Positions 10,320-34,767 of a stretch of DNA of 43,044 bases are shown here, one piece after another. The notes beneath the pieces were generated by a model. It saw only the letters and a list, made by a program, of their open reading frames with translations. It made no database searches and was not told the origin of the DNA. This DNA is from an uncultured Chloroflexota bacterium (GTDB lineage Bacteria; Chloroflexota; Anaerolineae; Anaerolineales; UBA4823), in assembly GCA_903871905.1 (NCBI GenBank), contig CAIQIV010000233.1, forward strand, positions 1 through 43,044, in the 5' to 3' direction. The position numbers were made by a program, and so were the translations under genes. How positions within the stretch are numbered: position 1 is the first letter of the stretch; the number at the start of each line of letters is the position of its first letter.

Positions 10320-10335
10320 AGCATAAGGATATGCT
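10320..10335 (+). promoter_or_regulatory. Predicted CsrA hairpin over the fliA start codon (AAGGAT loop)
   Basis: The string AGCAT-AAGGAT-ATGCT is a perfect 5-bp stem with a hexaloop that carries GGA, the core of CsrA sites. The loop contains the only Shine-Dalgarno-like bases, and the 3' arm begins with the fliA ATG itself. Folding or CsrA binding would hide the start. Three other genes in the window carry the same loop. Confidence 0.65.
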
Positions 10336-11134
10336 GGCTTCAAACGATGATGTAGAGCTGCTCAGAAAATTTGTGGCATCCCGAGATCCAATGATCCGGG
10401 AGGAGATCATCTTGCGTTTTGTGCCGCTGGTCTATTTTGTGCTGGGCCGATTGGGGTTATCCCGATCGCTCGGTGCGGATTACGAAGACGCTACCAGCCA
10501 GGGATTGATGGGATTAATCGAAGCGGTTGACCACTATGACCCGGGTTTTGGAACACAATTCAGCACTTATGCCACGGTGCGCATCCGAGGACGGGTCCTG
10601 GACCATTTGCGCTCGCTGGACTGGCTCTCCCGCGCAGCCCGGCGGCGGACGCGCACTGTCCAGGAGGCCACCAATATATTATGGAACCAGCTGGGCCGGG
10701 CGCCGACCGACGAGGAGTTGGCCAATCATCTTCACCTGGAGCTTCCTGCCTTGCAACAGGCGCTGGTAGATGCCAGCCGGGTCATCTTCTCCCTGGACAC
10801 CCTGGTTGAGACAGATGGAGAAGGTGACACCTCTCTGCATGAGATGCTCGCAGATCAACGGCAGCTTGACCCTTCAGATGCCTTTGATGAACAGGACCTG
10901 AAATCCCGTATGATGGCCACCATCAAGATGCTCCCAGATCGTGAGCAGTTGGTGCTTTCATTATACTATTATGAAGAACTCACCCTAAAGGAGATCGGTG
11001 CAGTGCTTCAAGTGTCAGAATCAAGGGTGTGCCAGCTGCATGCACGCGCTATCATGTCTCTGCGCGCCACCCTCAGCCAAGGAACGGCGGAGCCAAAGGA
11101 TACTTCAGAACAAAGCCTGGAGAGGATTTCCTGA
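10331..11134 (+). CDS. fliA: Flagellar sigma factor FliA (sigma-28 / SigD)
   Basis: FliA directs RNA polymerase to late flagellar promoters and is held by FlgM until the hook is complete. The 267-residue protein has sigma region 2 ('YEDATSQGLMGLIEAVDHYD' then GFGTQFSTYATVRIRGRVLDHLR), region 3 (RAPTDEELANHL) and region 4 (LPDREQLVLSLYYYEELTLKEIGAVLQVSESRVCQLH). ATG 10331 is the only sensible start because an in-frame TAG lies 12 bases upstream. The ribosome site (AAGG) is only 2-3 bases from the ATG, which is unusual and lies in the hairpin described above. Its cognate FlgM is encoded at 13234 and matching promoters are found in the window. Confidence 0.95.
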   Translation: MLASNDDVELLRKFVASRDPMIREEIILRFVPLVYFVLGRLGLSRSLGADYEDATSQGLMGLIEAVDHYDPGFGTQFSTYATVRIRGRVLDHLRSLDWLSRAARRRTRTVQEATNILWNQLGRAPTDEELANHLHLELPALQQALVDASRVIFSLDTLVETDGEGDTSLHEMLADQRQLDPSDAFDEQDLKSRMMATIKMLPDREQLVLSLYYYEELTLKEIGAVLQVSESRVCQLHARAIMSLRATLSQGTAEPKDTSEQSLERIS

Positions 11135-11181
11135 GATCTGGATGATCTTTCTTAAGACTAGAGATCTGGAGGTAACCTGGA

Positions 11182-11598
11182 ATGAACCGAATCAGCCCTG
11201 ACCTGCTTTACGACACACTCAACCTGGTGCAGCTGGCGCGCGAGACCGCCCTTGCCCGAGGAAATAAGGCACAGGCCGAACGCCTGGCGCCCGTAGCCGA
11301 GAACCTGCGCGACCTGGTAGGCACCGCCCGCCAATCCCAGGCGCCTGCCGCAGGCAGTGGCCAGATGGCCCAACCCGATTTCCGGACTTTGCTTAATGCA
11401 ATCCAAACCACACCGGCAGCCAACACCACTCCTACCACCTCAGGGCTTGAGCGTAATCAGATTATCTCTGCCATGTCTGAGGCCGGCATGGCAGAGATCG
11501 ATATTGCTCGCCAGATGGGCATTACCCGCGAAGAAGTGCGACTGATCGCCAGCCTGGGTAAAACCAACCGCTTTGCCTATACGGAGGTGATTAAGTGA
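11182..11598 (+). CDS. Small protein in the SwrB position, with C-terminal helix-turn-helix-like segment
   Basis: This 138-residue protein has no family I can name with certainty. The N-terminal 45 residues look helical, the middle is a Pro/Ala/Thr linker, and the C-terminal 45 residues carry a helix-turn-helix-like pattern ('MAEIDIARQMGITREEVRLI'). In Bacillus subtilis the gene directly after sigD is swrB, an activator of basal-body assembly whose C-terminus has a similar 'IA+xLGxxxGEVxLL' pattern. Position and C-terminus suggest an analogue, but SwrB has an N-terminal membrane helix that is missing here. A GGAGGT ribosome site lies 8 bases before the ATG; its end overlaps flgF by four bases. 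Confidence 0.7.
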   Translation: MNRISPDLLYDTLNLVQLARETALARGNKAQAERLAPVAENLRDLVGTARQSQAPAAGSGQMAQPDFRTLLNAIQTTPAANTTPTTSGLERNQIISAMSEAGMAEIDIARQMGITREEVRLIASLGKTNRFAYTEVIK

Positions 11599-12359
11599 TA
11601 AAAGGACTTTATGCAGCAGCCTCAGCCATGCTGGCCGGGATCACCGAACAGAACATCCTGTCCCACAACATCTCCAACATGGATACCCCCGGCTTTAAGC
11701 AAATCCTGACCTCTTTGCAGGATTTTTTACAGACCCCGGTATCTGCCCCACCTGCCACCGCCGCGGGTATTTACGGCAGCCGTTGGATCGGTGAAATTGG
11801 GCTGGGTACAGATACCACCGGAGAGGAAATCGATTTCACCCAGGGTACCCTGCAGCTCACCAGCCAGCCCATGGATTTTGCCATTGAAGGCAATGGTTTC
11901 TTCCGCGTCCAGACCCCCAATGGGGAACGCTACACGCGCGATGGCCGCTTCTACCTGGATTCGGAGGGCCAGATGGTTACCGTGGATGGATATTTTGTGC
12001 TGGATGAAGGTGGACAGCCTATTACCTTGCCTGAAAACGGCGATCTCTCGGTGAACGCTGAAGGGAGAATCTTCATGAATGGAGAGGAGGTCGCCCAGTT
12101 TGGGCGTGCGGCTTTCCTCGATCCCGCCGCAGAATTGACCCGCCAGGAATCCAACGTGTTTTTGGCCAGCGGAGACCCGTCCTCTGAGGACTACGGCGTG
12201 ATTGTGCAGGGCTATATTGAAGCTTCGAATTCCAATGCAGCCCAGCTAAACACCCAGATGGTCATCGTTGCCCGGCATTATGAAGCAGCCCAACAGCTCG
12301 TCCAAAACCAGGACGCCCTGTTAGGGCAGGCCATTACAGCCCTGGGAAGAATTTCGTGA
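11595..12359 (+). CDS. flgF: Flagellar rod protein, FlgF-like
   Basis: A 254-residue rod protein exported by the flagellar system. It has the N-terminal flg_bb_rod motif ('GLYAAASAMLAGITEQNILS' then HNISNMDTPGFKQ), the internal LQLTSQPMDFAIEGNGFFRVQTPNGERYTRDG region of the FlgE/F/G family, and the C-terminal helix ending ALGRIS. The start is GTG overlapping the previous stop (GTGA). FlgF rather than FlgG is chosen because the next gene has the more typical FlgG sequence; the pair corresponds to FlhO/FlhP in Bacillus. Confidence 0.85.
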   Translation: MIKGLYAAASAMLAGITEQNILSHNISNMDTPGFKQILTSLQDFLQTPVSAPPATAAGIYGSRWIGEIGLGTDTTGEEIDFTQGTLQLTSQPMDFAIEGNGFFRVQTPNGERYTRDGRFYLDSEGQMVTVDGYFVLDEGGQPITLPENGDLSVNAEGRIFMNGEEVAQFGRAAFLDPAAELTRQESNVFLASGDPSSEDYGVIVQGYIEASNSNAAQLNTQMVIVARHYEAAQQLVQNQDALLGQAITALGRIS

Positions 12360-12418
12360 CAGTTAGCCAGGCAATCTCCAGGCGCTCTGGCATTACAGTT
12401 TGAGAAAAGGAGTCAGGC

Positions 12419-13159
12419 ATGCCAGTATCTTACACCCAAACCCTGAATATTTCCCGCAGCGGGATGCTGGCGCGCCTGCTTGACCTGGATGTGGTCAGCA
12501 ATAACCTGTCCAATGTCAATACCACCGGGTATAAACGAAGCCGCGGGAATTTTCAAGAGATATTGAGCCAGAAACAGTTAGAAGGAACCCGTATTCGTGC
12601 TACCCAGAACATCATGGAACAGGGCAGCATCTATTCAACAACCAACCCCTTGGACCTGGCGATTAATGGCGAGGGTTTCTTCTCTGTAACACTTCCCGAT
12701 GAGCGCATTGCCTATACCCGCAATGGTGAGCTTTACGTGGATGCCAGCAACCGGCTGGTCGACAACAGTGGTCATCCGATTGTATGGGATGGCGAGCTGC
12801 CTGAGCGGATAGATGATATCCATGTCAACCCGGATGGTACCGTGATGGTCCAGTCAAATAACGAATGGACACAGGTCGGCCAAATCCCTGTGAGCCGCTT
12901 CCCCAATCCATCCGGGCTTTACCGTTTCGGTCAAAACCTGTGGCTGGAGTCCACCGCCTCAGGAGCAGTAGAAGATGGCGTTGCCAACTCAGATAACTTT
13001 GGAGCAATCATGGGCAATGTTCTTGAACGCTCCAATGTCAATCTGGCAGAGGAAATGGTCCAGATGATCAATCTGCAGCGGTCATTTCAAATGTCACTTC
13101 GCAGTTTTCAGCAAACCGATCAAATGTTGAGCCAGGCGATCCGTATGCGGCGAGCATAA
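12419..13159 (+). CDS. flgG: Flagellar distal rod protein FlgG
   Basis: FlgG builds the distal rod. The 246-residue protein has the rod motif 'LDVVSNNLSNVNTTGYKRSR', the core NPLDLAINGEGFFSV and the C-terminal family helix 'NVNLAEEMVQMINLQRSFQM'. The ATG has AAAAGGAG 8 bases upstream. Its TAA stop is also the first three bases of the -35 element of the flgM promoter, so the early and late operons touch at this point. Confidence 0.9.
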   Translation: MPVSYTQTLNISRSGMLARLLDLDVVSNNLSNVNTTGYKRSRGNFQEILSQKQLEGTRIRATQNIMEQGSIYSTTNPLDLAINGEGFFSVTLPDERIAYTRNGELYVDASNRLVDNSGHPIVWDGELPERIDDIHVNPDGTVMVQSNNEWTQVGQIPVSRFPNPSGLYRFGQNLWLESTASGAVEDGVANSDNFGAIMGNVLERSNVNLAEEMVQMINLQRSFQMSLRSFQQTDQMLSQAIRMRRA

Positions 13160-13183
13160 AGTTTCGCCAGAATGGGACGATAA
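13157..13183 (+). promoter_or_regulatory. Sigma-28 promoter for flgM-flgN-flgK-flgL-csrA
   Basis: TAAAGTTT-N11-GACGATAA: the -35 matches the enterobacterial FliA consensus at 8 of 8 bases, the -10 (GCCGATAA) at 7 of 8, and the spacer is exactly 11. Transcription should start near 13190, about 44 bases before flgM. Confidence 0.88.
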
Positions 13184-13233
13184 CATGGCAGAGAGTTTGC
13201 ATCGATTGTGCTTTGCACAGGAGGTAAGTGGCT

Positions 13234-13539
13234 ATGAAAATTGATAACAGTGGTTTGAACCGCATCTCCAGGCAAGAGACTGAGGCTGCTGCAGCGCTGG
13301 AAAAGAGCAACGCTCAGAATGAGACGGCTGCGGGTGTTGAGCGCTTTGGCGGAAAGGATCGAGCCACGCTTTCCGAGCGCGCTCGCCTGTTAGCCCGGGC
13401 GCGCGTCGCCATGGATGAAACCCCGGAAGTGCGTACCGACAAGGTTGGTAAACTGCGGGATGAGATCGAGACTGGAAATTACCAGCCCCCGCTTCAAGAA
13501 GTGGTCAAGCGGCTGGTATCCCAGGTGCGATTGAGTTAA
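13234..13539 (+). CDS. flgM: Anti-sigma-28 factor FlgM
   Basis: FlgM binds FliA until it is exported through the completed hook. The 101-residue protein is short, polar and low in hydrophobic residues in its N-terminal half, and has the C-terminal sigma-binding pattern 'RVAMDETPEVRTDKVGKLRD' then EIETGNYQPPLQEVVKRLV. ATG 13234 is chosen over GTG 13228 because AGGAGGT lies 8 bases before the ATG. It is the first gene of a FliA-dependent operon, so it forms a feedback loop with fliA. Confidence 0.92.
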   Translation: MKIDNSGLNRISRQETEAAAALEKSNAQNETAAGVERFGGKDRATLSERARLLARARVAMDETPEVRTDKVGKLRDEIETGNYQPPLQEVVKRLVSQVRLS

Positions 13540-13601
13540 TGCGCCCTTGCTTGTGGGATGTGTGTGGCTACAACCCAGGACAGGCGCGAGGATGACCCAT
13601 T

Positions 13602-14123
13602 ATGGTCGCGAATGAAAAGACGCTTGAACATCTGAATGCATTAGAAGATGTCCTGGTCAAGGAATTTCGGCTCTGCCAGAACCTGTATACCCTGACAAAA
13701 GATGAGCGCGCCGCCCTGGCGACGAACGATGTTTCTTCTCTACTGACCCTGGTAGAACGCAAGGAAGCGCTGTTAGACGAGTTGGGGCAGTTGGATGATT
13801 CGAGGCGCACACTCACCCAAGAAACCAGTCAACAACTGGGATTGAATATCGAATCCCCCACCTTGACGGATATCCTGCCTGCACTTGACCGGGACTCTGC
13901 TACCCGATTGGGACATCTGCGTGAAGGCATTCTTGCCTTGATGAATGAGGTCAAGGATCTCACGCATGGCAACCGCGCCCTGGCAGTTACCGCCCTGGAA
14001 CGCACAGATGCGGTGCAGGCTTTCTTGTTGAGTCTCTACCAGACCCCGGCAGGCTACCGACCGCAAAATGTTCCTGCGTCCCGCGAACCCACGTTATCTT
14101 GGGAAGTCGATCACACAGCCTGA
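13602..14123 (+). CDS. flgN: FlgN-type chaperone for hook-filament junction proteins
   Basis: FlgN escorts FlgK and FlgL to the export gate. The 173-residue protein is predicted helical throughout, with the usual opening 'LEDVLVKEFRLCQNLYTLTK' and the ERKEALLDELGQL segment typical of the family. It has no signal peptide. Position between flgM and flgK is the standard one. Sequence conservation in this family is low, so much of the confidence comes from context. Confidence 0.85.
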   Translation: MVANEKTLEHLNALEDVLVKEFRLCQNLYTLTKDERAALATNDVSSLLTLVERKEALLDELGQLDDSRRTLTQETSQQLGLNIESPTLTDILPALDRDSATRLGHLREGILALMNEVKDLTHGNRALAVTALERTDAVQAFLLSLYQTPAGYRPQNVPASREPTLSWEVDHTA

Positions 14124-14141
14124 CGATGCGAGAGGTGAGAG

Positions 14142-15563: not shown

Positions 15564-15595
15564 TTCAAGCGGCGCTGCGATAGGAAAGGTGAACG

Positions 15596-16495
15596 ATGCG
15601 TGTTACAGATAAGATGATGACCGAAAATGCTATCACTTATATGGATGACAACAAGTACAGGCTGCATGTGCTCCAGGAAAGAGTAGCTTCGGGAAAACAG
15701 TTTCTGCGCGCCTCAGACAACCCGGTAGGCGCCACCGCGGCGTTGAGCTTGCGCTCCAGCCTGGAAACAACGCGGGCTTACATCGATGCCAACAGCGTTA
15801 CCGAAAACTGGATGGGCGCCACCGACGCCTCAATGCTCAAACTGGCCGATGTCACCCGCAACGCGATCAAGCTCAGCATGGAAGGGATTTCCACTACCCA
15901 GGGCCCGACTGAACGGCAGGCTTTGGCTGCTGAGCTGAATATGTCCATTGAACAGGCGATTGTCCTGGGAAACACATCACACCAGGGAAGTTACATTTTC
16001 TCGGGTTTTAAGACCACGACCATCTCGTTCACCCGCGTGGACGCCAATAATGATGGGCAGGCTGAATCGGTAACTTATAATGGGGATACGGGGCTCATTT
16101 TGCGCAATATCAGTCCCGGTCAAACTGTTACCCAGAATATTACAGGCGATACCGTGTTCTCACCATTATTTGATGCCATGATCCGCGCCCGGGACGCGCT
16201 GCAGGCCGGCGATATGACCGCCTTGCAAACTGCCCTGCGCGATTTGCAGAACGGATTGACCAATGCCACTGAAGCCACCACCACCAACGGCGCACGGCAG
16301 CGCCAGGTGCGCCAGATCAGCGAGCGGCTTGAAACGACATCCACCGACCTCAAAAGCCTGCTTTCGCAAAAAGAAGATGTTAACATGGCTGAGGCAATAT
16401 CTTATCTGCGCAACCAGGAAACAGTGTACCAGGCTGTATTAGAAGTTGGTCAGCGTACCATATCTTCCCTAAACCTCTTCCAGGTTTTAGGTTAG
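15596..16495 (+). CDS. flgL: Hook-filament junction protein FlgL (HAP3)
   Basis: FlgL is the second junction layer and resembles flagellin. The 299-residue protein begins 'MRVTDKMMTENAITYMDDNK' and shows the flagellin-like N-terminal pattern LQERVASGKQFLRASDNPVGA and a C-terminal D0 segment (EAISYLRNQETVYQAVLEVGQRTISSLNLFQVL). AGGAAAGGTGA precedes the ATG. csrA starts 9 bases after its stop. Confidence 0.94.
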   Translation: MRVTDKMMTENAITYMDDNKYRLHVLQERVASGKQFLRASDNPVGATAALSLRSSLETTRAYIDANSVTENWMGATDASMLKLADVTRNAIKLSMEGISTTQGPTERQALAAELNMSIEQAIVLGNTSHQGSYIFSGFKTTTISFTRVDANNDGQAESVTYNGDTGLILRNISPGQTVTQNITGDTVFSPLFDAMIRARDALQAGDMTALQTALRDLQNGLTNATEATTTNGARQRQVRQISERLETTSTDLKSLLSQKEDVNMAEAISYLRNQETVYQAVLEVGQRTISSLNLFQVLG

Positions 16496-16504
16496 AATTA
16501 GCTT

Positions 16505-16816
16505 ATGCTGGTCCTGACGAGGCGAATTGACGAGAAAATCGTCATCAACGATAATATCGTTATCACCATCCTGTCCATCGAGGGCGAAAAGGTCAAGGTT
16601 GGCATTGCCGCCCCGCGTGAAGTAACGGTCCTGCGCCACGAACTGTGGCAGGCAATACAGGAGCAAAGTCACATTGCCGAAATCCTGGCCTCACAGCCGG
16701 CCGGCCATGGGCTGGATACCCTGCGATCGTTCCTGGCAACCGAGGTGCCCGATCAGTCTGATACCCCTGAAACTGAGCCGCGAGAGAAAAAAGAAGGCTC
16801 CCAAAGCACTTCGTGA
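16505..16816 (+). CDS. csrA: Carbon storage regulator CsrA with long C-terminal tail
   Basis: CsrA is a dimeric RNA-binding protein that recognises GGA in hairpin loops and usually blocks ribosome binding. The core (MLVLTRRIDEKIVIND... APREVTVLRHELWQAI) is typical, with Leu4, the N-terminal TRR and Arg44 of the RNA-binding face present. The protein is 103 residues against roughly 60-75 in well-known members; the extra 40 or so residues are polar and acidic (DQSDTPETEPREKKEG). In Bacillus the antagonist fliW is the neighbour of csrA; here no fliW is seen. The gene is last in the FliA-driven operon, so CsrA should rise late. Four likely target hairpins occur in the window. Confidence 0.95.
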   Translation: MLVLTRRIDEKIVINDNIVITILSIEGEKVKVGIAAPREVTVLRHELWQAIQEQSHIAEILASQPAGHGLDTLRSFLATEVPDQSDTPETEPREKKEGSQSTS

Positions 16817-16854: not shown

Positions 16855-16856
16855 TA

Positions 16857-17210
16857 TCATTTTCGGGGATAACCTGTCCGCATCCGGTAAACGTAAGCCA
16901 GAACTTCAGCGACAACTGCGTATAGCTCAGGTGGAATAACCGTATCAATATCTACATTGGCAAGGGCAGCCGCCAATATGGCGTCCTCGCGGATAGGGAT
17001 ACCGTTTTTGCGCGCTAACTCCAGGATCTTTTCCGCAACATAGCCTTCCCCCGAAGCCAGGATGCGCGGCGCCTGGTCCTGTTCAGGGTCATATCCCAGG
17101 GCAACTGCCTGGACGCGCTTTGGTTTTTCATCTCCCTCATCGCCCTGATGCTGCTCTCTTTTGAACCGGACATACCGGGTGTACATTGTTTTTCTGTTAG
17201 ACGCCCTCAA
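16857..17210 (-). CDS. flhX: FlhB C-terminal-domain paralogue (FlhX-like)
   Basis: A stand-alone version of the FlhB cytoplasmic C-terminal domain. The 117-residue product aligns with FlhB after the cleavage site: 'VQAVALGYDPEQDQAPRILA', GEGYVAEKILELARKNGIPI, and PPELYAVVAEVLAYVYRMR. The NPTH cleavage motif is absent, as expected for a protein made already cut. In other bacteria FlhX can partly replace the FlhB C-domain and affect substrate switching. The start is TTG 17210, which overlaps the stop of the preceding FliK-like gene by four bases; ATG 17186 is an alternative. The pairing with a FliK-like gene is the ylqG-ylqH arrangement of Bacillus. Confidence 0.85.
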   Translation of the reverse strand: MRASNRKTMYTRYVRFKREQHQGDEGDEKPKRVQAVALGYDPEQDQAPRILASGEGYVAEKILELARKNGIPIREDAILAAALANVDIDTVIPPELYAVVAEVLAYVYRMRTGYPRK

Positions 17211-18595
17211 ACGCCGAGATTGATCTGTTTTAATGAAGAAGCCGCAGCCTGATATTCCACTTTTGGATCGGTTGTTAATAATCCAACCTCACATTGCGAG
17301 GTTTGCAGATGATATCCAGCACTTTCCAGGCCGTGCTTGAACTCTGGCAAACCCTCCTTGGCTTTCTCCAACAATACCGGGGTTGAGGTGGTTACCAGGG
17401 CGCCAATTTGCCTGCCAACAATTGAGAGATCAACCTGCACAATGTCATCTTTATCCAGCTCAACCTGGATCACCAAACGCGAATAAGAAGGATCGATCTG
17501 GCGCTCTCCCTCCTCCACACGATACGCCAGGCGCAACTGGGTCGATTGCAGTTCGGCCTGAGTATGCTCAGCCGAAGGCGGGGTGCGCAGTGGCACAACC
17601 AGATTCAACCACTGTTCTTTTACCGGTTCTGTCACTGGTTCGGAATTGGTGAACTGCATCAGCCGGACGCTATCCAGGAACCGGTCAATCTCCTGCAGCA
17701 GCGCCTGGGGACCATCACGCGCCAGTTCCTGCCGCAGGCGTACCAACACCAACAGCCGGTTGCCCGCATCCAGTTGTTCCAGGGATTGGCCTCCCTGCCG
17801 CGCCAACAAAGCCAGATCGCTTTCTAAGGAGCGCCCTAGCAGCGTCACAGTCTGGCGCAGGCTTTCAGCCATCTTTTCAGGAGAAGCATTCCAGTCCACA
17901 CCCAACTCATCCAGTACCTTTTGAGCCTGGGTGATCAAGGCCGATAATTGAGGGGATAGAGTGCTGCGCGCCGTTTCCGCTAATTGTGTCCGCAGCCGAG
18001 ATAACCCCTCCGCCAGGGGCAGCATCTCAGTCAAAGCCAGGGAAAGCGTCCCCTGGCTGATGGGCAAACCAGCCGCTTTGAAGGCCGCTGCCATCTGCGC
18101 CTCTGTCTGGCCCCAGGCCTGCTGTCCCCCTTGAGCGTTCTGCGTCTGCTGAGCGTTTTGATCCAGGAGGGCACGCAGTTGATTGACCAGTTCCTTAGTC
18201 ACAGGCAGACCCTGTAATAATAAGGCACGCGCCAGGTAGACGTTTGCCTGGTCCAGCGGGATATCCATATTCTGTAAAAGCTGTGCTACCAGGTCCCCCA
18301 TTTGAGAGCCAGCAGCTCCTGTTGTCGCCGCCTGGGTGCCGATCAGTTGGAGAGAAATGACCGGGCCAGACATATCTTTGACCAGGAAATTGGCTACCCG
18401 TCGCTCCGTCAGCTGCGCCGCCTGGTCCGGTGTGGTCATGCGGGCCACAATCTTCACCCCATCAACCGACAGCAGGACGCGATCACCTGCCACCTGGAGC
18501 ACCTCAGCAGACATGCGCTGGTTGACACGCAGCGCTGCCGCTGGTTCCTCAGGTCGCTGGCTGGGGACAATCGGTAGCGGGCCAGAAATATTCAC
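17207..18595 (-). CDS. Second FliK-like protein (hook-length control C-domain)
   Basis: The C-terminal third carries a divergent flagellar hook-length control domain (Flg_hook): 'LVIQVELDKDDIVQVDLSIV' followed by GRQIGALVTTSTPVLLEKAKEGLPEFKHGLESAGYHL. The N-terminal part has a small beta-rich segment (MSAEVLQVAGDRVLLSVDGVKI) and long helical, Gln/Ala/Leu-rich stretches. I use GTG 18595 because the longer TTG start at 18625 lies inside a strong GC hairpin. It differs from the canonical fliK at 21907 and is coupled to flhX, so a role in an export-switch variation is likely, but its substrate is unknown. Confidence 0.72.
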   Translation of the reverse strand: MNISGPLPIVPSQRPEEPAAALRVNQRMSAEVLQVAGDRVLLSVDGVKIVARMTTPDQAAQLTERRVANFLVKDMSGPVISLQLIGTQAATTGAAGSQMGDLVAQLLQNMDIPLDQANVYLARALLLQGLPVTKELVNQLRALLDQNAQQTQNAQGGQQAWGQTEAQMAAAFKAAGLPISQGTLSLALTEMLPLAEGLSRLRTQLAETARSTLSPQLSALITQAQKVLDELGVDWNASPEKMAESLRQTVTLLGRSLESDLALLARQGGQSLEQLDAGNRLLVLVRLRQELARDGPQALLQEIDRFLDSVRLMQFTNSEPVTEPVKEQWLNLVVPLRTPPSAEHTQAELQSTQLRLAYRVEEGERQIDPSYSRLVIQVELDKDDIVQVDLSIVGRQIGALVTTSTPVLLEKAKEGLPEFKHGLESAGYHLQTSQCEVGLLTTDPKVEYQAAASSLKQINLGV

Positions 18596-18607
18596 TGCTG
18601 TCCAATC

Positions 18608-18637
18608 CCGGGGGGAGCATGCCAACGCTCCCCCCGG
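18608..18637 (-). terminator. Strong GC hairpin after the second flagellin gene
   Basis: A perfect 11-bp stem (CCGGGGGGAGC / GCTCCCCCCGG) with an 8-base loop lies between the second flagellin and the FliK-like gene. No T-run follows on either strand, so it may be an mRNA-protecting or attenuating hairpin rather than a full terminator. Confidence 0.6.
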
Positions 18638-18651: not shown

Positions 18652-19593
18652 TTACTGGAACAACTGCAGGATGAACTGCGGAGCGCTGTTTGCCTGGGCA
18701 AGCATTGCTGTCGCAGTTTGCTGTAAGATCAACAGCTTACTCGCCTCAACTTGCTCTTCAGCCATGTTAGCATTCATGATGCGGTTGAAAGCAGCCTCAG
18801 TCTGCGCATATTGGGCAGACAGCGCGTCTTCCTTGAACGTCAGGCGAGCCGACGCCGCGCCCACCTGGCTGATACCCTGCTTAACAATCGTCAAGGCATT
18901 TTCGATGGAAGAGAGCGTATACGCGCGGGTGGTATCACTGGTGGTCAGATCGATGGCAGAATTATCCAGCCCCAGCCCATCCACCGTGGCCACCGATCCG
19001 CTGGTGGCGAAAAAGCCTTGATTCAGGCCAATATAACGCGGCGGACCGGTTAAGATCTGGGTAAACTCGAAGCGCATCAGCTGGGCATTTCCCGCAGCAT
19101 CCACGTCCGGGCCGGTCAAGAAGTTCTGTACGTCCGTGGTACCGATGCTCCCACTGGTGGAGTTAACCAGCAGGTAATTATTATTCCAGCGCGCCTGGGT
19201 GGCGATTTGATCGATTTCATCTCGGAAGGCGCGCAGCGTATCCTGGATGGCCTGCCGTTCGGCAGGGCCGATCGTGCCGCTTTGTGCTTCCAGGCCCTTG
19301 TTGCGCATCTGGATCAGCAGTTCCTGGATCTTGCGCAGGTTGGTCTCTGAAATCGAAAGCAGATTCTTGGCATCGCCAATCACTTTCACCGCGGTCTTTA
19401 AACCTTCACTGCGAATCTGGAAGGTGGTGGCAATGCTCAGACCAGCCGGATCATCGGCTGATTCATTGATGCGCCTTCCCGTCGATAAGCGTGTTTGGCG
19501 AATGGAAAGCTGCGTATTGACATACTGCAACGAATTCAGCGCATTTAAAGCCTGGATATTCCCAGCAATACGGGTAAGATCTACTGTAGACAT
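18652..19593 (-). CDS. Second flagellin (in the hook operon)
   Basis: A 313-residue flagellin with the standard ends: N-terminal 'MSTVDLTRIAGNIQALNALN' and LSTGRRINESADDPAGLSIA, C-terminal MNANMAEEQVEASKLLILQQTATAMLAQAN followed by APQFILQLFQ. The variable centre is short, so only D0/D1 and a small insertion are present. It is similar throughout its ends to the flagellin at 33650. It lies 27 bases after flgE with a strong GGAGG ribosome site and no promoter of its own that I can see, so it should be made with the hook. It could be a minor filament-base flagellin. Confidence 0.93.
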   Translation of the reverse strand: MSTVDLTRIAGNIQALNALNSLQYVNTQLSIRQTRLSTGRRINESADDPAGLSIATTFQIRSEGLKTAVKVIGDAKNLLSISETNLRKIQELLIQMRNKGLEAQSGTIGPAERQAIQDTLRAFRDEIDQIATQARWNNNYLLVNSTSGSIGTTDVQNFLTGPDVDAAGNAQLMRFEFTQILTGPPRYIGLNQGFFATSGSVATVDGLGLDNSAIDLTTSDTTRAYTLSSIENALTIVKQGISQVGAASARLTFKEDALSAQYAQTEAAFNRIMNANMAEEQVEASKLLILQQTATAMLAQANSAPQFILQLFQ

Positions 19594-28094: not shown

Positions 28095-29855
28095 CTATTT
28101 CTCGTCCTCAGACAGCCAGAGTTGAATAATCTCAGCAATACTGGCAGGGGATTCTTCAGCCATGCGCTGTAAGATCTTCTGCATCTGTTCGTCTTCTGCC
28201 GACATTGCAGGGATATCGATCTTCGGCTCCGGCAGGATAACCGGCATCGGCTCAGGCTGAGGCGGCATCGCCAAACCAGGCATCACTCCTGGGGCCGCGC
28301 CAGGCATCACACCTGGAATAATTCCTGGGACAGCCCCAGGGTATCCAATCCCAGGCATGGGCGCTGGAGCCATTCCGGGCAAGCCCGGTGCCATCCCAGG
28401 AGCCATGCCGGGGACCATTCCCGGCGCCATGCCCGCCGAGGGGGGCAGGGCCATCTCTGCCACCGGCTTGAAAACCGGCGTCCAGGTCTGGGCAGAGGTC
28501 AGGCGCAGTCGGTTAAGCAGCCGCTGGATATACCATAACAGTCCCACCAGCACCAGGATCGCCAGCGCCACTTCACCAATGCGCCAGTACAGGTCATAGC
28601 GCTGGCTGGTATCCATATCGCTCGCCTGGGTTTCGTAATAGGTGCGATCAAAGTCTAAAGTCTGTACCGAAAGGACATCTCCCCGCCTGGTATCGATCCC
28701 GGCAGCAGCCGCAATGGCCGACTGTAAGGAGGCCAACTGGACCGTATCCGTGATCCCATCCACCAATACAGACAGCGAAATCCGCTCGATCTTTCCAGGT
28801 GCAAGAACCTCTTTGGTATTGCTCTGGGTAATTTCATAGTTGAGGGTCTTCTCTGTCCGGGTGTAATTTAAGGTCTCATTCCCGCTGCCGCTGGAGCTGG
28901 TTGTGGGCGGCAGGTTGGTGGCTGCACCCGGGATGCCGCTGATCGTCCCATTAGTTGTCGTATAATTCTCAGTGACAAACTGCGAACTGCGCACCACCGA
29001 GGCAGGGTCAAAAGCCTGGGTTTGCACCTCCCGCTGCGTCCAATCCATCGTGACTGCGGTCTGAACCACTGAGCGGTTCGGCCCCAATGCTGTGTCCAGC
29101 AGATCCTGAACATTGCGTGAAATCTCACTGCTGGCGCTGCTCTCGGCGGCGCGCTGGCTGTCTGACTGCGCCGAAGCAGCCGCCTGTCCTGTCGCCTCGC
29201 CCGAGGCAAGCATGTTCCCCCGCACATCCACCACAACCACATTTTCCGGCTTCAATCCTTCAACGCTGCTGGCTACCAGGTGAGTGATAGCGCTGACCTG
29301 GGTTACATCCAGCCGTGTACCTGGCCTTTCCTCAATCGTGATAGAAGCCGTGGTTGGCGCCTGGTCCTGCGCAGTCAGGCTTTGTTCCGGGGTGACGATG
29401 TGCACCCGCACTGCCTTAACCGCGTTCAAACCACCGATCGTGCGCTCCAACTCCCCCTCCAATGCCTGCTGATAATAAACCTGCTGAGTAAACTCGGTCA
29501 GCCCCAGCGTATTATTCGTGGTGAAGATCTCAAACCCCACCGACCCAACCTGCGGCAGGCCTTCGCGTGCCATGCGCAGGCGCACCGTGTAGACCTGGTC
29601 CTGCGGAACCAGGATAGTTCCGCTACCCTGCAGTTGGTACGGGATCTGCAGTTCATCCAGCTTACCCACGATCTGGCTGGCATCTGACTCGGACAGACCG
29701 CTGTATGCCACAGAATAACTGGGTGTTGTCGCCCAATTTACCAGCAAGGGGATCAGGATCAACGCGCTGACGACCAAAGCGATCAGAACAACCCGCTGAA
29801 CCGGCGTCTGCCGGTTCCATACTTCGATTGACTGTTGGCGGAATTGAGCTAGCAT
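28095..29855 (-). CDS. fliF: MS-ring protein FliF with Met-Pro-Gly-rich insertion
   Basis: FliF makes the MS-ring in the membrane. The 586-residue protein has membrane helices at about 21-41 and 427-446, the PrgK/YscJ-like ring modules between them ('GSGTILVPQDQVYTVRLRMA', VHIVTPEQSLTAQDQAPTTASI), and a C-terminal acidic FliG-binding end (MAEESPASIAEIIQLWLSEDEK). Between helix 2 and the FliG-binding end it holds a run of Met-Ala/Val/Leu-Pro-Gly units (about 468-532), which I do not know from other FliF proteins. The start has little ribosome-site support, but the N-terminal length is normal. Confidence 0.95.
   Translation of the reverse strand: MLAQFRQQSIEVWNRQTPVQRVVLIALVVSALILIPLLVNWATTPSYSVAYSGLSESDASQIVGKLDELQIPYQLQGSGTILVPQDQVYTVRLRMAREGLPQVGSVGFEIFTTNNTLGLTEFTQQVYYQQALEGELERTIGGLNAVKAVRVHIVTPEQSLTAQDQAPTTASITIEERPGTRLDVTQVSAITHLVASSVEGLKPENVVVVDVRGNMLASGEATGQAAASAQSDSQRAAESSASSEISRNVQDLLDTALGPNRSVVQTAVTMDWTQREVQTQAFDPASVVRSSQFVTENYTTTNGTISGIPGAATNLPPTTSSSGSGNETLNYTRTEKTLNYEITQSNTKEVLAPGKIERISLSVLVDGITDTVQLASLQSAIAAAAGIDTRRGDVLSVQTLDFDRTYYETQASDMDTSQRYDLYWRIGEVALAILVLVGLLWYIQRLLNRLRLTSAQTWTPVFKPVAEMALPPSAGMAPGMVPGMAPGMAPGLPGMAPAPMPGIGYPGAVPGIIPGVMPGAAPGVMPGLAMPPQPEPMPVILPEPKIDIPAMSAEDEQMQKILQRMAEESPASIAEIIQLWLSEDEK
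28260..28454 (-). repeat. Met-Pro-Gly repeat segment inside FliF
   Basis: About 65 codons encode a low-complexity run of units such as GMAPGMVPGMAPGMAPG, later PGIIPGVMPGAAPGVMPG. The units vary in codon use, so the segment is maintained at protein level rather than being a fresh DNA repeat. It lies on the cytoplasmic side, just before the FliG-binding end. Confidence 0.9.
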
Positions 29856-29904
29856 AGGTCAGTTATTTTAGAAAACCGGATCCTTGTGAATGAAAGCTGG
29901 CTTG

Positions 29905-30207: not shown

Positions 30208-30209
30208 AG

Positions 30210-30665: not shown

Positions 30666-30768
30666 CTGCCATTTCTCCTTTCTACACCCCAATCCTAGCA
30701 TGAAGCCCCCATCTTTACTGTAAAGCCGGTGTGAAGGAGAAATAAAAAATCTGTGAAAGTAACGCGCG

Positions 30769-30795
30769 GCGATGGACACCGGTGGTGTCCATCGC
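30769..30795 (-). terminator. Hairpin between fliS and flgC
   Basis: A perfect 12-bp stem (GCGATGGACACC / GGTGTCCATCGC) with a 3-base loop. A T-rich run (TTTTTTATT) follows about 20 bases downstream on the - strand rather than directly, so termination efficiency is unclear. It ends the fliS unit and separates it from the flgC operon. Confidence 0.65.
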
Positions 30796-30832
30796 TGTTG
30801 GAATTAATTACTGAAGTAAAAGAGAACCTATT

Positions 30833-31201
30833 TTAGACTGTCGCTCGAGCCAGTGTCCCCGGTTGGTTGTTGACTGGCACAGGCACCGGTGAGAGGCGTT
30901 TCTCAACTGTGGACCAGGCCTCACGAAGATCCTTCAGAGTGTGCAGAGCGCTGTCATAATCACCCTGGCGAACACAATCCAGGCACCACTGGTAAAGCCG
31001 GAACAGGCCTACTGCCGCATCTCCATAATCGAAATTCAACGCATCCCGCAAGGCGCCGATTGTTTTCGTCGCCTGAATAAAGTCTTGCTGCTCACAGGCC
31101 TTGATTGCCAGGTCATAGGCCATCACAACCAACCGGATTGGGCTGGCGCCCATCACATCCTGCTGGCGGTATTCCTGAGACCCGTACCCTCTGTACATCA
31201 T
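30833..31201 (-). CDS. fliS: Flagellin export chaperone FliS
   Basis: FliS binds the C-terminus of flagellin in the cytoplasm and prevents early polymerisation. The 122-residue helical protein shows the family pattern 'GYGSQEYRQQDVMGASPIRL' then VVMAYDLAIKACEQQD and LNFDYGDAAVGLFRLYQWCLDCV. ATG 31201 is 7 bases from an AAAGGAG ribosome site; GTG 31204 and ATG 31198 are alternatives. A sigma-28 promoter lies about 60 bases upstream. Confidence 0.94.
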   Translation of the reverse strand: MMYRGYGSQEYRQQDVMGASPIRLVVMAYDLAIKACEQQDFIQATKTIGALRDALNFDYGDAAVGLFRLYQWCLDCVRQGDYDSALHTLKDLREAWSTVEKRLSPVPVPVNNQPGTLARATV

Positions 31202-31259
31202 CACCTGACTCCTTTCACTGCCTGGTTAGAACCCTAGCATCATTTTGTGTTATATCTCA

Positions 31260-31286
31260 GTATCGGCATTCTGGGCTGAACCTTAA
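31260..31286 (-). promoter_or_regulatory. Sigma-28 promoter for fliS
   Basis: On the - strand: TTAAGGTT-N11-GCCGATAC. The -10 matches GCCGATAA at 7 of 8 bases, the -35 matches TAAAGTTT at 6 of 8, and the spacer is exactly 11. Transcription should start near 31253, leaving a leader of about 50 bases. Confidence 0.8.
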
Positions 31287-31358
31287 GGCCGTGGGCGTAA
31301 AAAACACCTAAAAAGCAGCCAGTAGATCCAAAGGGGTGACACCAGTTCTGAGTGATCT

Positions 31359-31727
31359 TTATGCAAACAGCTGCAAGATCTCACCAGGACCCATTTTGGA
31401 CATGTCTTCCGGCGGGATCGTGCGCACCACCTGGCGTGAAGCCCGGTTCAGGATCAGAATGGTGACATCATTCGTCTGAGGGTCCACCTGGAACTTCAAG
31501 CTGATGTCCACCATCGGGTTCTGCCCGCTCGCCTTCTCCGGTTTGGCTTCTGCAGGTTTTGCCTCGCTGGGCTTGGCCTGGTTCTCAACCCGTGCGGCCA
31601 GGACATCCTCGCCTCCATGCGATTTTGCCGGCGCCGGCGGTTGAGATGAGACTGCCTGGGATAGCTGGGCAAAGCCGCTCAGGTCGATCTCAATCCTGCC
31701 CACTGGGTTTACACTGTTTTCGGACAT
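31359..31727 (-). CDS. flaG: FlaG-family protein
   Basis: FlaG proteins are small and affect filament length; the mechanism is unclear. The 122-residue product has a Pro/Ala/Glu/Lys-rich N-terminal part (AKPSEAKPAEAKPEKASG) and the conserved C-terminal beta domain 'ISLKFQVDPQTNDVTILILN' with RQVVRTIPPEDMSKMGPGEIL. Position between fliD and fliS is the usual one. A GGA-loop hairpin lies directly upstream of its ribosome site. Confidence 0.9.
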   Translation of the reverse strand: MSENSVNPVGRIEIDLSGFAQLSQAVSSQPPAPAKSHGGEDVLAARVENQAKPSEAKPAEAKPEKASGQNPMVDISLKFQVDPQTNDVTILILNRASRQVVRTIPPEDMSKMGPGEILQLFA

Positions 31728-31742
31728 GTGTCCCTTCCTTTC

Positions 31743-31768
31743 CGCCTCAAACCATCCTTGGTGAGGCG
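31743..31768 (-). promoter_or_regulatory. Predicted CsrA hairpin in the flaG leader (AAGGAT loop)
   Basis: On the - strand, CGCCTCA/TGAGGCG (7 bp), a 2-base bulge and CC/GG close a hexaloop AAGGAT. The loop neighbourhood ACCAAGGATGG is close to the CsrA consensus ACARGGAUGU. It ends a few bases before the flaG ribosome site (AAGGAAGGG). Confidence 0.65.
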
Positions 31769-31783
31769 CTTACTCACCAGCCG

Positions 31784-33517
31784 CTAGTACGAGCGGCTGA
31801 CACCACCATACATGCTGCCCAACATCTGCTGTGTATAGCTCATGTTGATCAACTGCGCCTGCAGCTGGGCATACTGGTTACTCAAGTACAATTCTCGATC
31901 GTTTAACCTGGCCGTCATATCTTTGATTTCCAGGTTCATCCCGCTGAGCTCAGTCGAGAAGTTGGAAACCGCCTGGTCCAGGTATCCGGTCTCGCCGCCA
32001 GTGACACCGGTGAAGCGAGTCAGCTTGGATTCCAATGCCCCCATCACCTGGTCCATCAGGGTAGTGACCCCTTCCAGGTTGGTGCTGAGCGCCGTATCCA
32101 GCTTGCTGCTGTCGCTGACGGTCACCTGCAGGCTGTCGTTGATGGTCAGGCCAATTTCCCGCAGGCTCTGGTAGGTGCCGCTGGAGACGGGGTTCATAAA
32201 GGTCATGAACAAATCGCTGCGCAGATCGCTGAAGATGTTGTCATCCGCCAGGGAACCCCGGGTATAGGTTGTGGACACCCCGTCGTTGAAGCTGGTAATT
32301 GCGGTCTTGGTCTCCAGGTAAGTCTGCACCTCATTCATCTGGTCAACAAAGGTCTGGATGGCGCTGCGGGCATTTGACATATCCGAGCTGACCGTCAGCG
32401 TGGCGCTCTTGCTGGCTGCGTCGGCGGCCAGGTTCAGGGTGACGCCGCTGATCACATCTGTCAACCCGGTATTCTGGCTGCGAGTCACCGATAAGCCGTT
32501 CACCGTAAAGACCGCATCCAAAGCGGATTGCATCTCGTTTTTGAAGGTTCCGGTTCCGGTCAGCACACCCAGGGACTGCAGCACGGTGCCGCTGGTGTCC
32601 TGGGCCGAAATGGAATAGCTCGTCCCGGTGGAGGCCGCAGTCAGCACCAACTGCCGATCAATTACTGAGGCCACCACCCCGCTGCCCTCGCCATAAGTGC
32701 CGCTGTTAATCTTGGCCGCGATGGCATTCAGGCTGTCCGATGCCGCGACTGTGATCGATGCCCCTTGGGCAGTGTAATTGACCCGAGCGGCTCCGCTGCT
32801 GCGGTCCGCAGCCTGGTACAGCGCGGAATTGGCGCCAAAATCGATGGTCAAACCGCGCCCGGTGTCAAAGGTTCCAGAGGTAATGGACTGCCAGGAGCTG
32901 GTATATTCGCTGGTCGTGCCGTCCTTGATGCTGACGGCTTTGCCTTCCGAGTTCACCAGGCGGAACTGCCAGCCGTTGTCCGGGTCATTGCGCGTCTCAA
33001 CGTAGTAGCTGCCGCTGCCCAGCTCCTTCTGGCCGTCCAATGGAGCGCTGGTGTTGAAAGCTGTCACCGTATCGGCGATAGTGGATACCGTGGACTGCGA
33101 GCGGCTGGCGGCGCCGCCGATCAGGAAGGTTCCCGTGCGGTTAAGTGCCTGGTCAGCATAAAGCTGCTGGTCTGAGCGCACCCGCTGCTCGCGCGCCAGG
33201 TGATCCACGGCCACATTGTAAGCGCCGATCGCCGCACTGCTGGAAGTCGAGGCGGTGATGACTGTGGTATTGGTGGGTGCATTGCTCACTGCCCCGCTGC
33301 GGCCTGCCACCAGCGCCGGCGACGGATAGGTGGATTTCAAGGCCTGGACCGCCGAGAGCAGGCTGCTCAACTTGGTATCGACATCCTGGTAGGCGCCACT
33401 GCGCACATTCAGCGTGTCCCGCTGCTGCTGCAGCCGGACCAACGGCTGGCGCTCAACCGCCATGATGCTGGTGATCAAGCTGGTAAATGTCGAACTGAGA
33501 CCTGTTACGCTGGTCAT
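31784..33517 (-). CDS. fliD: Filament cap protein FliD (HAP2)
   Basis: FliD caps the filament and helps flagellin fold into place. The 577-residue protein has the N-terminal FliD domain ('LSSTFTSLITSIMAVERQPL' with LQQQRDTLNVRSGAYQDVDTKLSSL), Ser/Thr-rich central domains, and the C-terminal coiled region (MNLEIKDMTARLNDRELYLSNQYAQLQAQLINM). ATG 33517 has GGAGG 6 bases upstream; both are covered by a small AAGGAT-loop hairpin. It is longer than enterobacterial FliD because of the central region. Confidence 0.95.
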   Translation of the reverse strand: MTSVTGLSSTFTSLITSIMAVERQPLVRLQQQRDTLNVRSGAYQDVDTKLSSLLSAVQALKSTYPSPALVAGRSGAVSNAPTNTTVITASTSSSAAIGAYNVAVDHLAREQRVRSDQQLYADQALNRTGTFLIGGAASRSQSTVSTIADTVTAFNTSAPLDGQKELGSGSYYVETRNDPDNGWQFRLVNSEGKAVSIKDGTTSEYTSSWQSITSGTFDTGRGLTIDFGANSALYQAADRSSGAARVNYTAQGASITVAASDSLNAIAAKINSGTYGEGSGVVASVIDRQLVLTAASTGTSYSISAQDTSGTVLQSLGVLTGTGTFKNEMQSALDAVFTVNGLSVTRSQNTGLTDVISGVTLNLAADAASKSATLTVSSDMSNARSAIQTFVDQMNEVQTYLETKTAITSFNDGVSTTYTRGSLADDNIFSDLRSDLFMTFMNPVSSGTYQSLREIGLTINDSLQVTVSDSSKLDTALSTNLEGVTTLMDQVMGALESKLTRFTGVTGGETGYLDQAVSNFSTELSGMNLEIKDMTARLNDRELYLSNQYAQLQAQLINMSYTQQMLGSMYGGVSRSY

Positions 33518-33525
33518 CCTTGACC
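33512..33525 (-). promoter_or_regulatory. Predicted CsrA hairpin over the fliD start codon (AAGGAT loop)
   Basis: On the - strand, GGTC-AAGGAT-GACC: a 4-bp perfect stem with the same hexaloop as at fliA, flaG and fliC. The 5' arm uses the last GG of the ribosome site and the ATG spans the loop end and 3' arm. Confidence 0.55.
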
Positions 33526-33562
33526 TCCGAAAAAATACATCCTAAAGAGCTGTTGCCAGAGT

Positions 33563-33607
33563 GCCTGATAGGGGGGATACTCCAGGCATCCCCCCCACTC
33601 ATCAGGC
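33563..33607 (-). terminator. Two-tier hairpin between fliC and fliD
   Basis: GCCTGAT/ATCAGGC (7 bp) encloses a second stem of 8 bp (GGGGGGAT/ATCCCCCC). The 9-base loop, read on the - strand, is GCCTGGAGT and itself contains GGA. No T-run follows directly, so it may limit rather than stop readthrough from fliC into fliD, and could stabilise flagellin mRNA. Confidence 0.65.
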
Positions 33608-33649
33608 TAGTGTTCTATTCGGCCAGCCCCCGTTCATCCAGGCTTACGC

Positions 33650-34552
33650 CTACTTGAACAGCGAGAGCAGGAACTGCGGCGCCATGTTGGCTTGAGCCAA
33701 CATCGAGGTGGCCGTCTGCTGCAGGATTTGGAACTTCATGGCGTTCACCTGCTCCTCCGCCATGTTGGCATTCATGATCCGGTTGTAGGCTGCCTCAGTA
33801 TTGGCCTGCTGCACGGTGAGCGCCTCTTCCTTGAAGGTCAACCGGGCAGAGAAGGCGCCAACCTGGGCGATACCTTCCTTGACGATGTTCAGCGCAGCTT
33901 CGATCTTGCCGGCAGCCGTCTGGGCTGTGGTGGTGCTGTTGATGGTCAGGGCAGTATTATCCAGGCCAAGACCGGAAGCGCCTGAGGCCGAGGTGGTGGC
34001 CTGGAAGCCCTGGTTGGCAGAGATGTACGTGCCCGCTGAGAAGCTGAATGAGCTGGTGCTGTTGCTGGCCTCTGGGCCGGTCAGGAAGTTCAGGGCCGTG
34101 GTGCTGCCCGTGCCGCCCGAACCCGAGATCAGATTGGTGCTGTTCCACTGAGTCTGCTTGACAATGTCATCAATTTCAGCCGCGAAAGCCCGCACCTGCG
34201 CCTGGACGGCATTGCGCTCATTGGTGCCGATGGTGTCGCCCATGGCTTCTTTGGTCTTGTTGTTCATCTTGACCAGGATGTCCTGGATCTTCTTCAGGCC
34301 GCCTTCCATCGTGGACATCAAGTTCTTGGCGTCGCCGATGGCCGAAACAGCCGTTGCTAATCCCTGGCGGCGTACGTCAAAGGTGGTTGCCAGGCTCATG
34401 CCAGACGGGTCGTCAGCAGCCTCATTGATGCGCTTACCCGTCGCCAGCCGCGTCTGGTAGATCGACAACTGGTTGTTGACGTAGGACAGGGAATTGAGGG
34501 CATTCAGTGCCCCGATATTGCCCGCAATGCGGGTGACATCTACGTTAGCCAT
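33650..34552 (-). CDS. fliC: Major flagellin FliC/Hag
   Basis: The filament subunit. The 300-residue protein has intact ends: 'MANVDVTRIAGNIGALNALN' with RLATGKRINEAADDPSGMSLA, and MNANMAEEQVNAMKFQILQQTATSMLAQANMAPQFLLSLFK. The centre is short, Ser/Thr/Gly-rich (GSGGTGSTTALNF, NSTSSFSFS), which leaves possible O-glycosylation sites. It has its own sigma-28 promoter and a leader of roughly 210 bases, with a strong GGAGG ribosome site, so I take it as the major flagellin. fliD follows after a strong hairpin, and a giant glycosyltransferase gene lies upstream in the same direction. Confidence 0.95.
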   Translation of the reverse strand: MANVDVTRIAGNIGALNALNSLSYVNNQLSIYQTRLATGKRINEAADDPSGMSLATTFDVRRQGLATAVSAIGDAKNLMSTMEGGLKKIQDILVKMNNKTKEAMGDTIGTNERNAVQAQVRAFAAEIDDIVKQTQWNSTNLISGSGGTGSTTALNFLTGPEASNSTSSFSFSAGTYISANQGFQATTSASGASGLGLDNTALTINSTTTAQTAAGKIEAALNIVKEGIAQVGAFSARLTFKEEALTVQQANTEAAYNRIMNANMAEEQVNAMKFQILQQTATSMLAQANMAPQFLLSLFK

Positions 34553-34767
34553 AATAAACCTCCATGTTTATCAGAAAAATTATAAGGGGATCCTTCCCCT
34601 TTTGATTCCGGGTGTTGCTTGCGGTTCCATTTTCTTGTTCAGCGCTGGCAGGAACCACTTCTGCCGGCATCTACGGTGTTTCCGGGTTGGACTTATGCCT
34701 ATCTTCGAATTTTCCTTTCGATACTGCTGCCTCCTGAACCGTTGCTGGATTTTTTGTTCTAAAGGAA
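34553..34767 (-). promoter_or_regulatory. Long 5' leader of fliC with many GGA sites
   Basis: This gene-free stretch is the predicted transcribed leader between the sigma-28 promoter and fliC. Read on the - strand it contains about eight GGA triplets, including one in the AAGGAT hairpin and one in the ribosome site (GGAGG, 6 bases before the ATG). I see no small ORF with a good start. Confidence 0.6.
34584..34601 (-). promoter_or_regulatory. Predicted CsrA hairpin in the fliC leader (AAGGAT loop)
   Basis: On the - strand, AAGGGG-AAGGAT-CCCCTT: perfect 6-bp stem with GGA in the loop, about 20 bases before the ribosome site GGAGG. The pair of sites (hairpin plus ribosome site) resembles the two-site CsrA arrangement known for Bacillus hag. 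ATAATTTTT follows, so a leaky terminator is an alternative reading. Confidence 0.7.

Follow-up and report, generated by a model that had tools for sequence, protein, structure and literature searches.

In a 43,044-nucleotide (nt) stretch of DNA from an uncultured Chloroflexota bacterium (contig C233 of a 6.1-Mb assembly in 865 contigs; hereafter, the window), the leaders of two genes of a large flagellar locus, fliC, which encodes flagellin, and flaG, carry hairpins with GGA in the loop that, judging from comparison with relatives, are very probably binding sites for CsrA. The hairpins themselves, their conservation and covariation, the sequence of their loops, their position and their co-occurrence with CsrA are established. 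The locus consists of fliA, flgM, flgN, flgK, a flgL-type gene, csrA, fliF, fliS, flaG, fliD and two flagellin genes (Table 1), and the nearest named relative of the window flagellin (72% identity) belongs to an Anaerolineales metagenome-assembled genome, also from Chloroflexota. An earlier, sequence-only reading of the window had assigned four hairpins with the loop AAGGAT, at fliA, flaG, fliD and fliC, to CsrA control of the late flagellar genes as a set. The CsrA explanation is well supported for fliC and flaG, and not for fliA and fliD.

All four AAGGAT hairpins are present in the sequence at the coordinates originally given, and such a set is unlikely to have arisen by chance in the window. 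The stems were said to be of 4 to 9 base pairs (bp), which is correct for fliA (5 Watson-Crick pairs, or 6 with G-U), fliD (4) and fliC (6) and inaccurate for flaG, where the fold consists of 3 contiguous pairs, a 2-nt bulge and 6 further pairs. Similarly, a location at or just before the start codon is a fair description of fliA and fliD, where the hairpin overlaps the ATG, and not of fliC and flaG (Table 1). The window contains 29 copies of the hexamer AAGGAT and, as had been claimed, the 25 outside the four hairpins are flanked by at most 2 Watson-Crick pairs (the copy at 29255 reaches 3 with G-U). Three copies have a contiguous stem of at least 4 pairs, compared with a mean of 0.08 and a maximum of 2 in 100 shuffles of the window; at positions -60 to +15 of 42 selected gene starts, AAGGAT-loop hairpins were found in three genes, fliA, fliD and fliC (shuffle mean 0.004). 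The assertion that the four hairpins are far from chance is thus borne out by shuffling, with the proviso that for fliA and fliD these figures make the result look more surprising than it is, because the motif was chosen post hoc and AAGGA itself resembles a Shine-Dalgarno sequence. The sequence-only reading overlooked a second hairpin in the fliC leader, with the core ATAAAC-ATGGAG-GTTTAT, and the flaG leader contains a second GGA within its Shine-Dalgarno sequence, 19 nt downstream of the hairpin by hand count. The folding energies are ordinary compared to shuffles (z of -1.03 for fliC, -0.90 for flaG, 0.41 for fliD and -1.22 for fliA), and energy alone being uninformative, the evidence for the hairpins is comparative.

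A flagellin search of genome contigs yielded 60 loci, 56 of them with a usable fliC leader; the cut-offs on identity and N terminus left out L084, L087, L091 and L093, of which L084 and L087 nonetheless carry both hairpins. Scoring covered hexaloops that have GGA at loop positions 3 to 5 and the contiguous stems enclosing them, between -80 and +15 of start codons assigned by script (an uncertain assignment for flaG, whose N terminus is variable), with a threshold score of at least 11, at which 0.1 to 0.6 hits per gene set are expected from shuffles. At this threshold, a GGA-hexaloop hairpin is found in 50 of the 56 fliC leaders of relatives (shuffle mean 0.58) and in 17 of the 37 flaG leaders (shuffle mean 0.47). 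The upstream part of the fliC leader alone (-80 to -20) accounts for 50 of 56 and the Shine-Dalgarno part alone for 39 of 56, and 14 of the 17 flaG hairpins begin at -33 to -47, the matching place. Among the 64 possible loop cores, GGA is the commonest in both sets (50 vs 3 for fliC, 17 vs 2 for flaG). The same search gave 0 of 19 for the relatives' fliA leaders (1 of 20 with the window, which is itself the one), the orthologs coming from a search of 61 genomes and showing 47-64% identity to the window FliA; 1 of 48 for fliD (L088, with the hairpin elsewhere, at -65); 0 of 44 for fliS; 1 of 10 for flgL; and 1 of 15 for csrA. A looser test directed at the start (loops of 4 to 6 nt, score 10, -30 to +15) recovered 41 of 56 fliC leaders (shuffle mean 1.91), 7 of 37 flaG (2.13, P 0.01), 3 of 19 fliA (L016, L020 and L023; 0.49, P 0.02), 3 of 48 fliD (1.49, P 0.22), 3 of 44 fliS (1.26, P 0.11), 1 of 15 csrA and 0 of 10 flgL. 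The three fliD cases are similar Leptolinea-type loci with a pentaloop, CGCC-GCGGA-GGCG, at about -17, at the Shine-Dalgarno sequence. Given these leader counts, we have to conclude that conservation singles out flagellin and FlaG as the targets and does not extend to the flagellar sigma factor or to the filament genes as a whole: fliA and fliD are rejected as conserved CsrA targets, and, because of the result of the looser test, we retain for fliA only the notion that there may be a weak tendency towards GGA hairpins at its start. Of the proposed CsrA control of the late flagellar genes, the part that concerns fliC and flaG is supported by the relatives and the rest is not.

The pattern of substitutions points in the same direction. 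The loops of the first fliC hairpin (n = 50) are AAGGAT in 33 leaders, AAGGAA in 8, ACGGAT in 4 and others in 5, and those of the second (n = 39) are ATGGAG in 25, AAGGAG in 9 and ACGGAG in 5; the general form is ANGGAN. Alignment was possible for 45 of 57 leaders (the 56 and the window), in all of which A.GGA is invariant in both hairpins; the 12 excluded rows (L051, L052, L053, L054, L067, L070, L072, L075, L076, L080, L082 and L085) have a GGA hairpin elsewhere, several of these being labeled Bacillota, or none. Across the aligned stems, 87.5% of cells are paired, compared with 75.2% in shuffled and 31-63% in slid controls, and 67 cells show double changes (19.7 shuffled, 3-23 slid). For flaG, an alignment of 21 of the 37 relatives and the window gave 79% paired cells (62.5% shuffled) and 34 double changes (12.7 shuffled), a count that favors structure because only rows in which the core could be seen were taken, with GGA as the anchor. 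As separate observations, the Bacillota-labeled loci L067, L070, L051, L082 and L085 have a hairpin of the type GAGGAAGGATCCTC about 40-62 nt upstream of the flagellin start, and in L063 a 9-bp hairpin with the loop CAGGAG lies about 50 nt before csrA, so that self-control by CsrA is possible there.

A model of the two-hairpin fliC leader (R1), some rows of which came from genomes that were then searched, has one match each in 18 of the 61 relatives' genomes, in all 18 just upstream of a flagellin gene, and all 18 encode CsrA and a strong FliA; among the 61, CsrA (match below 1e-15) is found in 21 and strong FliA in 20. CsrA and FliA occur without an R1 match in G011 and G046, and CsrA without either strong FliA or R1 in G051. 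In 248 genomes of the class, each at least 85% complete, R1 matched 9; three of these matches, in G161, G221 and G276 (E 1e-4 or worse), lie away from any flagellin gene. A second model (R2) was built from flaG hairpins only, including that of the window. In the window, the flaG hairpin ranks first by construction and the second fliC hairpin, unseen by the model, ranks second (19.5 bits). Across eight whole genomes, the top R2 match is the flaG leader in G029, G001, G024, G304 and G012, whereas in G050 it is the second fliC hairpin, and G009 has a match at neither. As for further targets in the eight genomes, the other matches have E of 0.09 or worse. The contexts of 22 of the 30 loci retrieved in this search were inspected by script, which picked the strongest GGA hairpin close to the center and may miss the match where a contig end truncates the locus.

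How do these leaders compare with known CsrA systems? In Escherichia coli and other gammaproteobacteria, CsrA recognizes GGA in loops, controls flagella through flhDC and is titrated by the CsrB/C RNAs; in Bacillus subtilis, the leader of the flagellin gene hag has two CsrA sites. The window shares with the E. coli system the GGA loops and the conserved core of CsrA, of which 54 residues align with E. coli CsrA (PDB 1y00). The resemblance to the flaA leader of Campylobacter jejuni is close: there, ANGGA sits in two stem-loops that are supported by compensatory changes, and the downstream one covers the ribosome-binding site (PMC4894983; Dugar 2016), as the fliC leaders here have two GGA hairpins, compensatory changes and a downstream hairpin over the Shine-Dalgarno sequence, with flaG as a probable second target. 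The distance between the two GGA is 21 nt in C. jejuni flaA, 30 nt (hand count) in the window fliC and 21-32 nt in the relatives' leaders measured (44 of the 56). The C. jejuni protein also binds the flaG, flaB and flgI leaders, more weakly, and fliD is enriched with it (PMC4894983), so that the earlier statement that CsrA control of such a gene set had not been described is only partly right. No report of a CsrA-flagellin leader in Chloroflexota was found in a full-text literature search, the coverage of which leaves out most subscription journals. The ANGGAN loops of the window and its relatives agree with the consensus sites mAwGGAs of C. jejuni and RUACARGGAUGU of E. coli (PMC6692469), and B. 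subtilis hag offers a further parallel, a flagellin leader in which CsrA occludes the Shine-Dalgarno sequence (PMC6529632). From the C. jejuni leader design and the consensus sites, the fliC and flaG leaders of the window can be assigned to a kind already known. In functional terms, we infer binding, repression and relief of repression from the sequence: at fliC, a CsrA dimer would grip the upstream loop (34584-34601) and the loop with the Shine-Dalgarno sequence (34552-34573), and the bound protein would block the ribosome until flagellin is needed, whereas at flaG it would hold the single hairpin loop and probably the GGA in the Shine-Dalgarno sequence.

Several findings weigh against CsrA as the ligand of these leaders. 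The threshold score is missed by 6 of the 56 fliC and 20 of the 37 flaG leaders, and 3 of the 17 flaG hairpins (L081, L079 and L057) are elsewhere, at -63 to -70. FliW, the usual partner of CsrA, is missing in most relatives, and the window CsrA lacks N55. In the window's own genome (G000), the top three R2 matches are neither leader and flaG comes fourth (E 1.46). G090, a 94% complete draft, has the leader before flagellin and no CsrA match, and in C. jejuni FlaG levels are not substantially altered by csrA deletion alone (PMC4894983), FlaG having fallen about 3-fold on deletion of fliW. Finally, CsrA is confounded with flagella, all 20 strong-FliA genomes possessing it, and co-occurrence cannot separate the two; together with the fact that the second fliC hairpin encloses the Shine-Dalgarno sequence, this leaves some room for a leader structure maintained for another reason, such as Shine-Dalgarno sequestration, an RNA thermometer or stabilization of the mRNA. 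We consider such an explanation improbable, given that the stems vary while the loop stays constant, that GGA is the sole strongly enriched core of the 64 in sets that were not selected for it and that the upstream fliC hairpin shares the loop and yet covers no Shine-Dalgarno sequence. Still harder to credit is a role of the inverted repeats at the DNA level, as operators recognized by a transcription factor. Near-palindromes such as GGGGAAGGATCCCC would suit that role, but the loop is asymmetric and keeps its sense orientation to the gene in the relatives' leaders, the second fliC repeat overlaps the Shine-Dalgarno sequence and the candidate promoter is about 165 nt upstream of the first fliC hairpin.

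The hairpins at fliA and fliD call for a separate judgment: they are real yet outside the conserved set and, at best, would be additions in this lineage. A single functional CsrA regulon comprising all four hairpins, in which the fliA and fliD sites would be gains of the lineage, is suggested by the loops of these two sites, exactly AAGGAT and overlapping the start codon, by the weaker GGA hairpins at 3 of 19 fliA starts and by the enrichment of C. jejuni fliD mentioned above. This proposal seems to us rather unlikely. No fliA leader of a relative, and a single fliD leader with the hairpin in another place, reaches score 11; the fliD stem is only 4 bp, and the looser count for fliD does not exceed chance; R2 gives the window fliA hairpin 10.8 bits (E 2.4), and fliD is not among its matches at E up to 10; and AAGGA near a start is favored anyway as a Shine-Dalgarno sequence. 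The closest relative found has a FliA only 64% identical, which also counts against it. The other option, which we find somewhat more probable than not, is that the fliA and fliD hairpins are due to chance and the CsrA sites are those of fliC and flaG only; it accords with the absence of conservation at comparable strength and with the fact that 4% of 500 shuffles have at least two of the 42 starts with a hairpin of score 11 or above around any GGA hexaloop (mean 0.26), although the exact AAGGAT loop in both genes is far rarer by chance.

A further puzzle concerns FliW, which controls CsrA in C. jejuni and is absent from most relatives here. Only 5 of the 61 genomes encode it (G000, G038, G046, G050 and G052), and a search of the 61 with a tandem FliW query at E 1 produced no additional match better than E 0.13. 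All 13 same-family relatives with strong FliA (G001, G007, G009, G010, G011, G012, G023, G024, G026, G029, G032, G034 and G036) have CsrA and no detectable FliW; of the csrA loci compared in ten of them (all but G009, G011 and G023), nine have a frame of about 300 codons ending 10-17 bases before csrA, the distance in G010 being about 117 bases. FliW is likewise absent from all 12 genomes behind the named loci with the leader, some of which likely overlap the G-numbered genomes (e.g., L074 and G001); these include the complete genome of Leptolinea sp. HRD-7, Anaerolinea thermolimosa, Thermanaerothrix daxensis, Leptolinea tardivitalis and Bellilinea caldifistulae, and CsrA is seen in the flanks of 6 of the 12, the other 6 not having been searched for it. 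The Anaerolineales genomes with the two-hairpin leader and no detectable FliW comprise those of L099-L104, L108-L110, L117, L046, L049 and L056-L058. Among the class-sample genomes, CsrA (match below 1e-15) is present in 12, and 10 of these 12 also encode FliW, the exceptions being G049, of the same order, and G186. Furthermore, FliW binding in C. jejuni and B. subtilis requires residue N55 of CsrA, which did not vary among the FliW-bearing species of that comparison (PMC7829508). Here, N55 is present in 13 of 13 CsrAs from FliW-bearing genomes and in 10 of 23 from FliW-less ones, while E or Q occupies position 59 in 22 of the 23 FliW-less and in none of the 13 FliW-bearing ones; because the sequences are related, these counts are not independent events, and they omit the window (with which N55 would be 13 of 14) and six CsrAs of unknown FliW status. 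The FliW-less CsrAs have a C-terminal tail of the approximate pattern EQN.IAE.LA......LR.FLA.E, unlike those of FliW-bearing genomes.

The window's assembly holds one FliW gene, with two FliW domains in a single frame of 273 amino acids (aa) (L141:2834-3655, contig C711 of G000) located away from csrA. Its halves are 45% identical, and it is 45% identical to a tandem FliW that adjoins csrA in G046; a literature search for tandem or fused FliW with CsrA found no description. Contamination as the source of C711, although conceivable at the 8% stated for the assembly, is not supported, with a GC content of 54.1% vs 54.2% and a centered 4-mer correlation with the window of 0.81 (0.26-0.80 for eight window pieces, -0.16 to 0.46 for five stretches of relatives). 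The window CsrA, the only CsrA match in its assembly, has S55 and E59, despite the tandem FliW. In Bacillus, fliW and csrA occur together (PMC6529632), whereas in the window csrA starts 9 bases past the flgL-type gene, with no fliW between them. All this may be accommodated by a flagellin checkpoint without FliW in Anaerolineales, a scenario that we put forward tentatively and consider a little less than evenly balanced: the two-hairpin leader and a CsrA bearing the C-terminal extension would have been kept while FliW was lost and N55 drifted, with release of CsrA falling to some other partner, be it a new protein acting on the tail, flagellin itself or a sponge RNA. The species of the window would then be a side case, combining a tandem FliW with a CsrA of the FliW-less type.

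As for the rest of the locus, the second flagellin gene, in the hook-gene cluster, was considered as a CsrA target and rejected, a GGA-loop hairpin being absent from its leader; beside it lies an open reading frame of 472 aa (17207-18625, minus strand) with no Pfam match. Upstream of fliC on the same strand (34873-41952), a 2359-aa protein with several glycosyltransferase domains of the GT2 and GT4 types is encoded, a candidate flagellin glycosylation enzyme. Besides the candidate promoter of fliC, sigma-28-like sites, judged by a consensus, precede flgM (13157-13183, plus strand, 1 mismatch) and fliS (31260-31286, minus strand, 2 mismatches); any one of them is weak evidence because the window has 40 such matches where 22.4 are expected. 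Rfam gave no match in the window above the gathering score, no search having been aimed at CsrB/C-type RNAs.

Table 1. Leader hairpins, genes and a promoter candidate in the window
Feature	Position	Strand	Description
fliC leader hairpin 1	34584..34601	-	AAGGGG-AAGGAT-CCCCTT; -49 to -32 relative to the fliC start codon; proposed as the upstream CsrA site
fliC leader hairpin 2	34552..34573	-	TGATAAAC-ATGGAG-GTTTATTA; loop contains the Shine-Dalgarno GGAG; proposed second CsrA site
flaG leader hairpin	31743..31768	-	CGCCTCACC-AAGGAT-GGTTTGAGGCG; stem with a 2-nt bulge; 16-41 nt before the flaG start codon
fliD start hairpin	33512..33525	-	GGTC-AAGGAT-GACC; overlaps the ATG; real, not conserved
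fliA start hairpin	10320..10335	+	AGCAT-AAGGAT-ATGCT; overlaps the ATG at 10331; real, not conserved at such strength
fliC	33650..34552	-	Flagellin, 300 aa; Pfam PF00669, PF00700
flaG	31359..31727	-	122 aa; Pfam PF03646
fliD	31784..33517	-	Filament cap, 577 aa; Pfam PF02465, PF07195
fliA	10331..11134	+	FliA-type flagellar sigma factor, 267 aa; Pfam sigma-70 regions 2, 3 and 4
flgL-type gene	15596..16495	+	Directly upstream of csrA; Pfam Flagellin_N and place after flgK; named by context
csrA	16505..16816	+	103 aa, with a 50-aa C-terminal extension; Pfam PF02599 (E 8e-23); its presence in the locus, as first claimed, is confirmed
Second flagellin	18652..19593	-	In the hook-gene cluster
Sigma-28-like promoter candidate for fliC	34768..34794	-	TCAA-N15-GACGATAA; 2 mismatches to the consensus

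These findings extend the CsrA-flagellin leader to Chloroflexota, with evidence at the level of base pairs, and identify FlaG as the other conserved target. Campylobacter has the same pair, in keeping with the idea that CsrA has long had this function. More unusual than the hairpins themselves is that the leader has been retained where FliW has been lost. Because most of the relatives examined lack FliW, the mode of CsrA release in the order becomes a question in its own right, and, with the leader and CsrA persisting where FliW is absent, what releases CsrA can be put to the test in cultured Leptolinea and Bellilinea.

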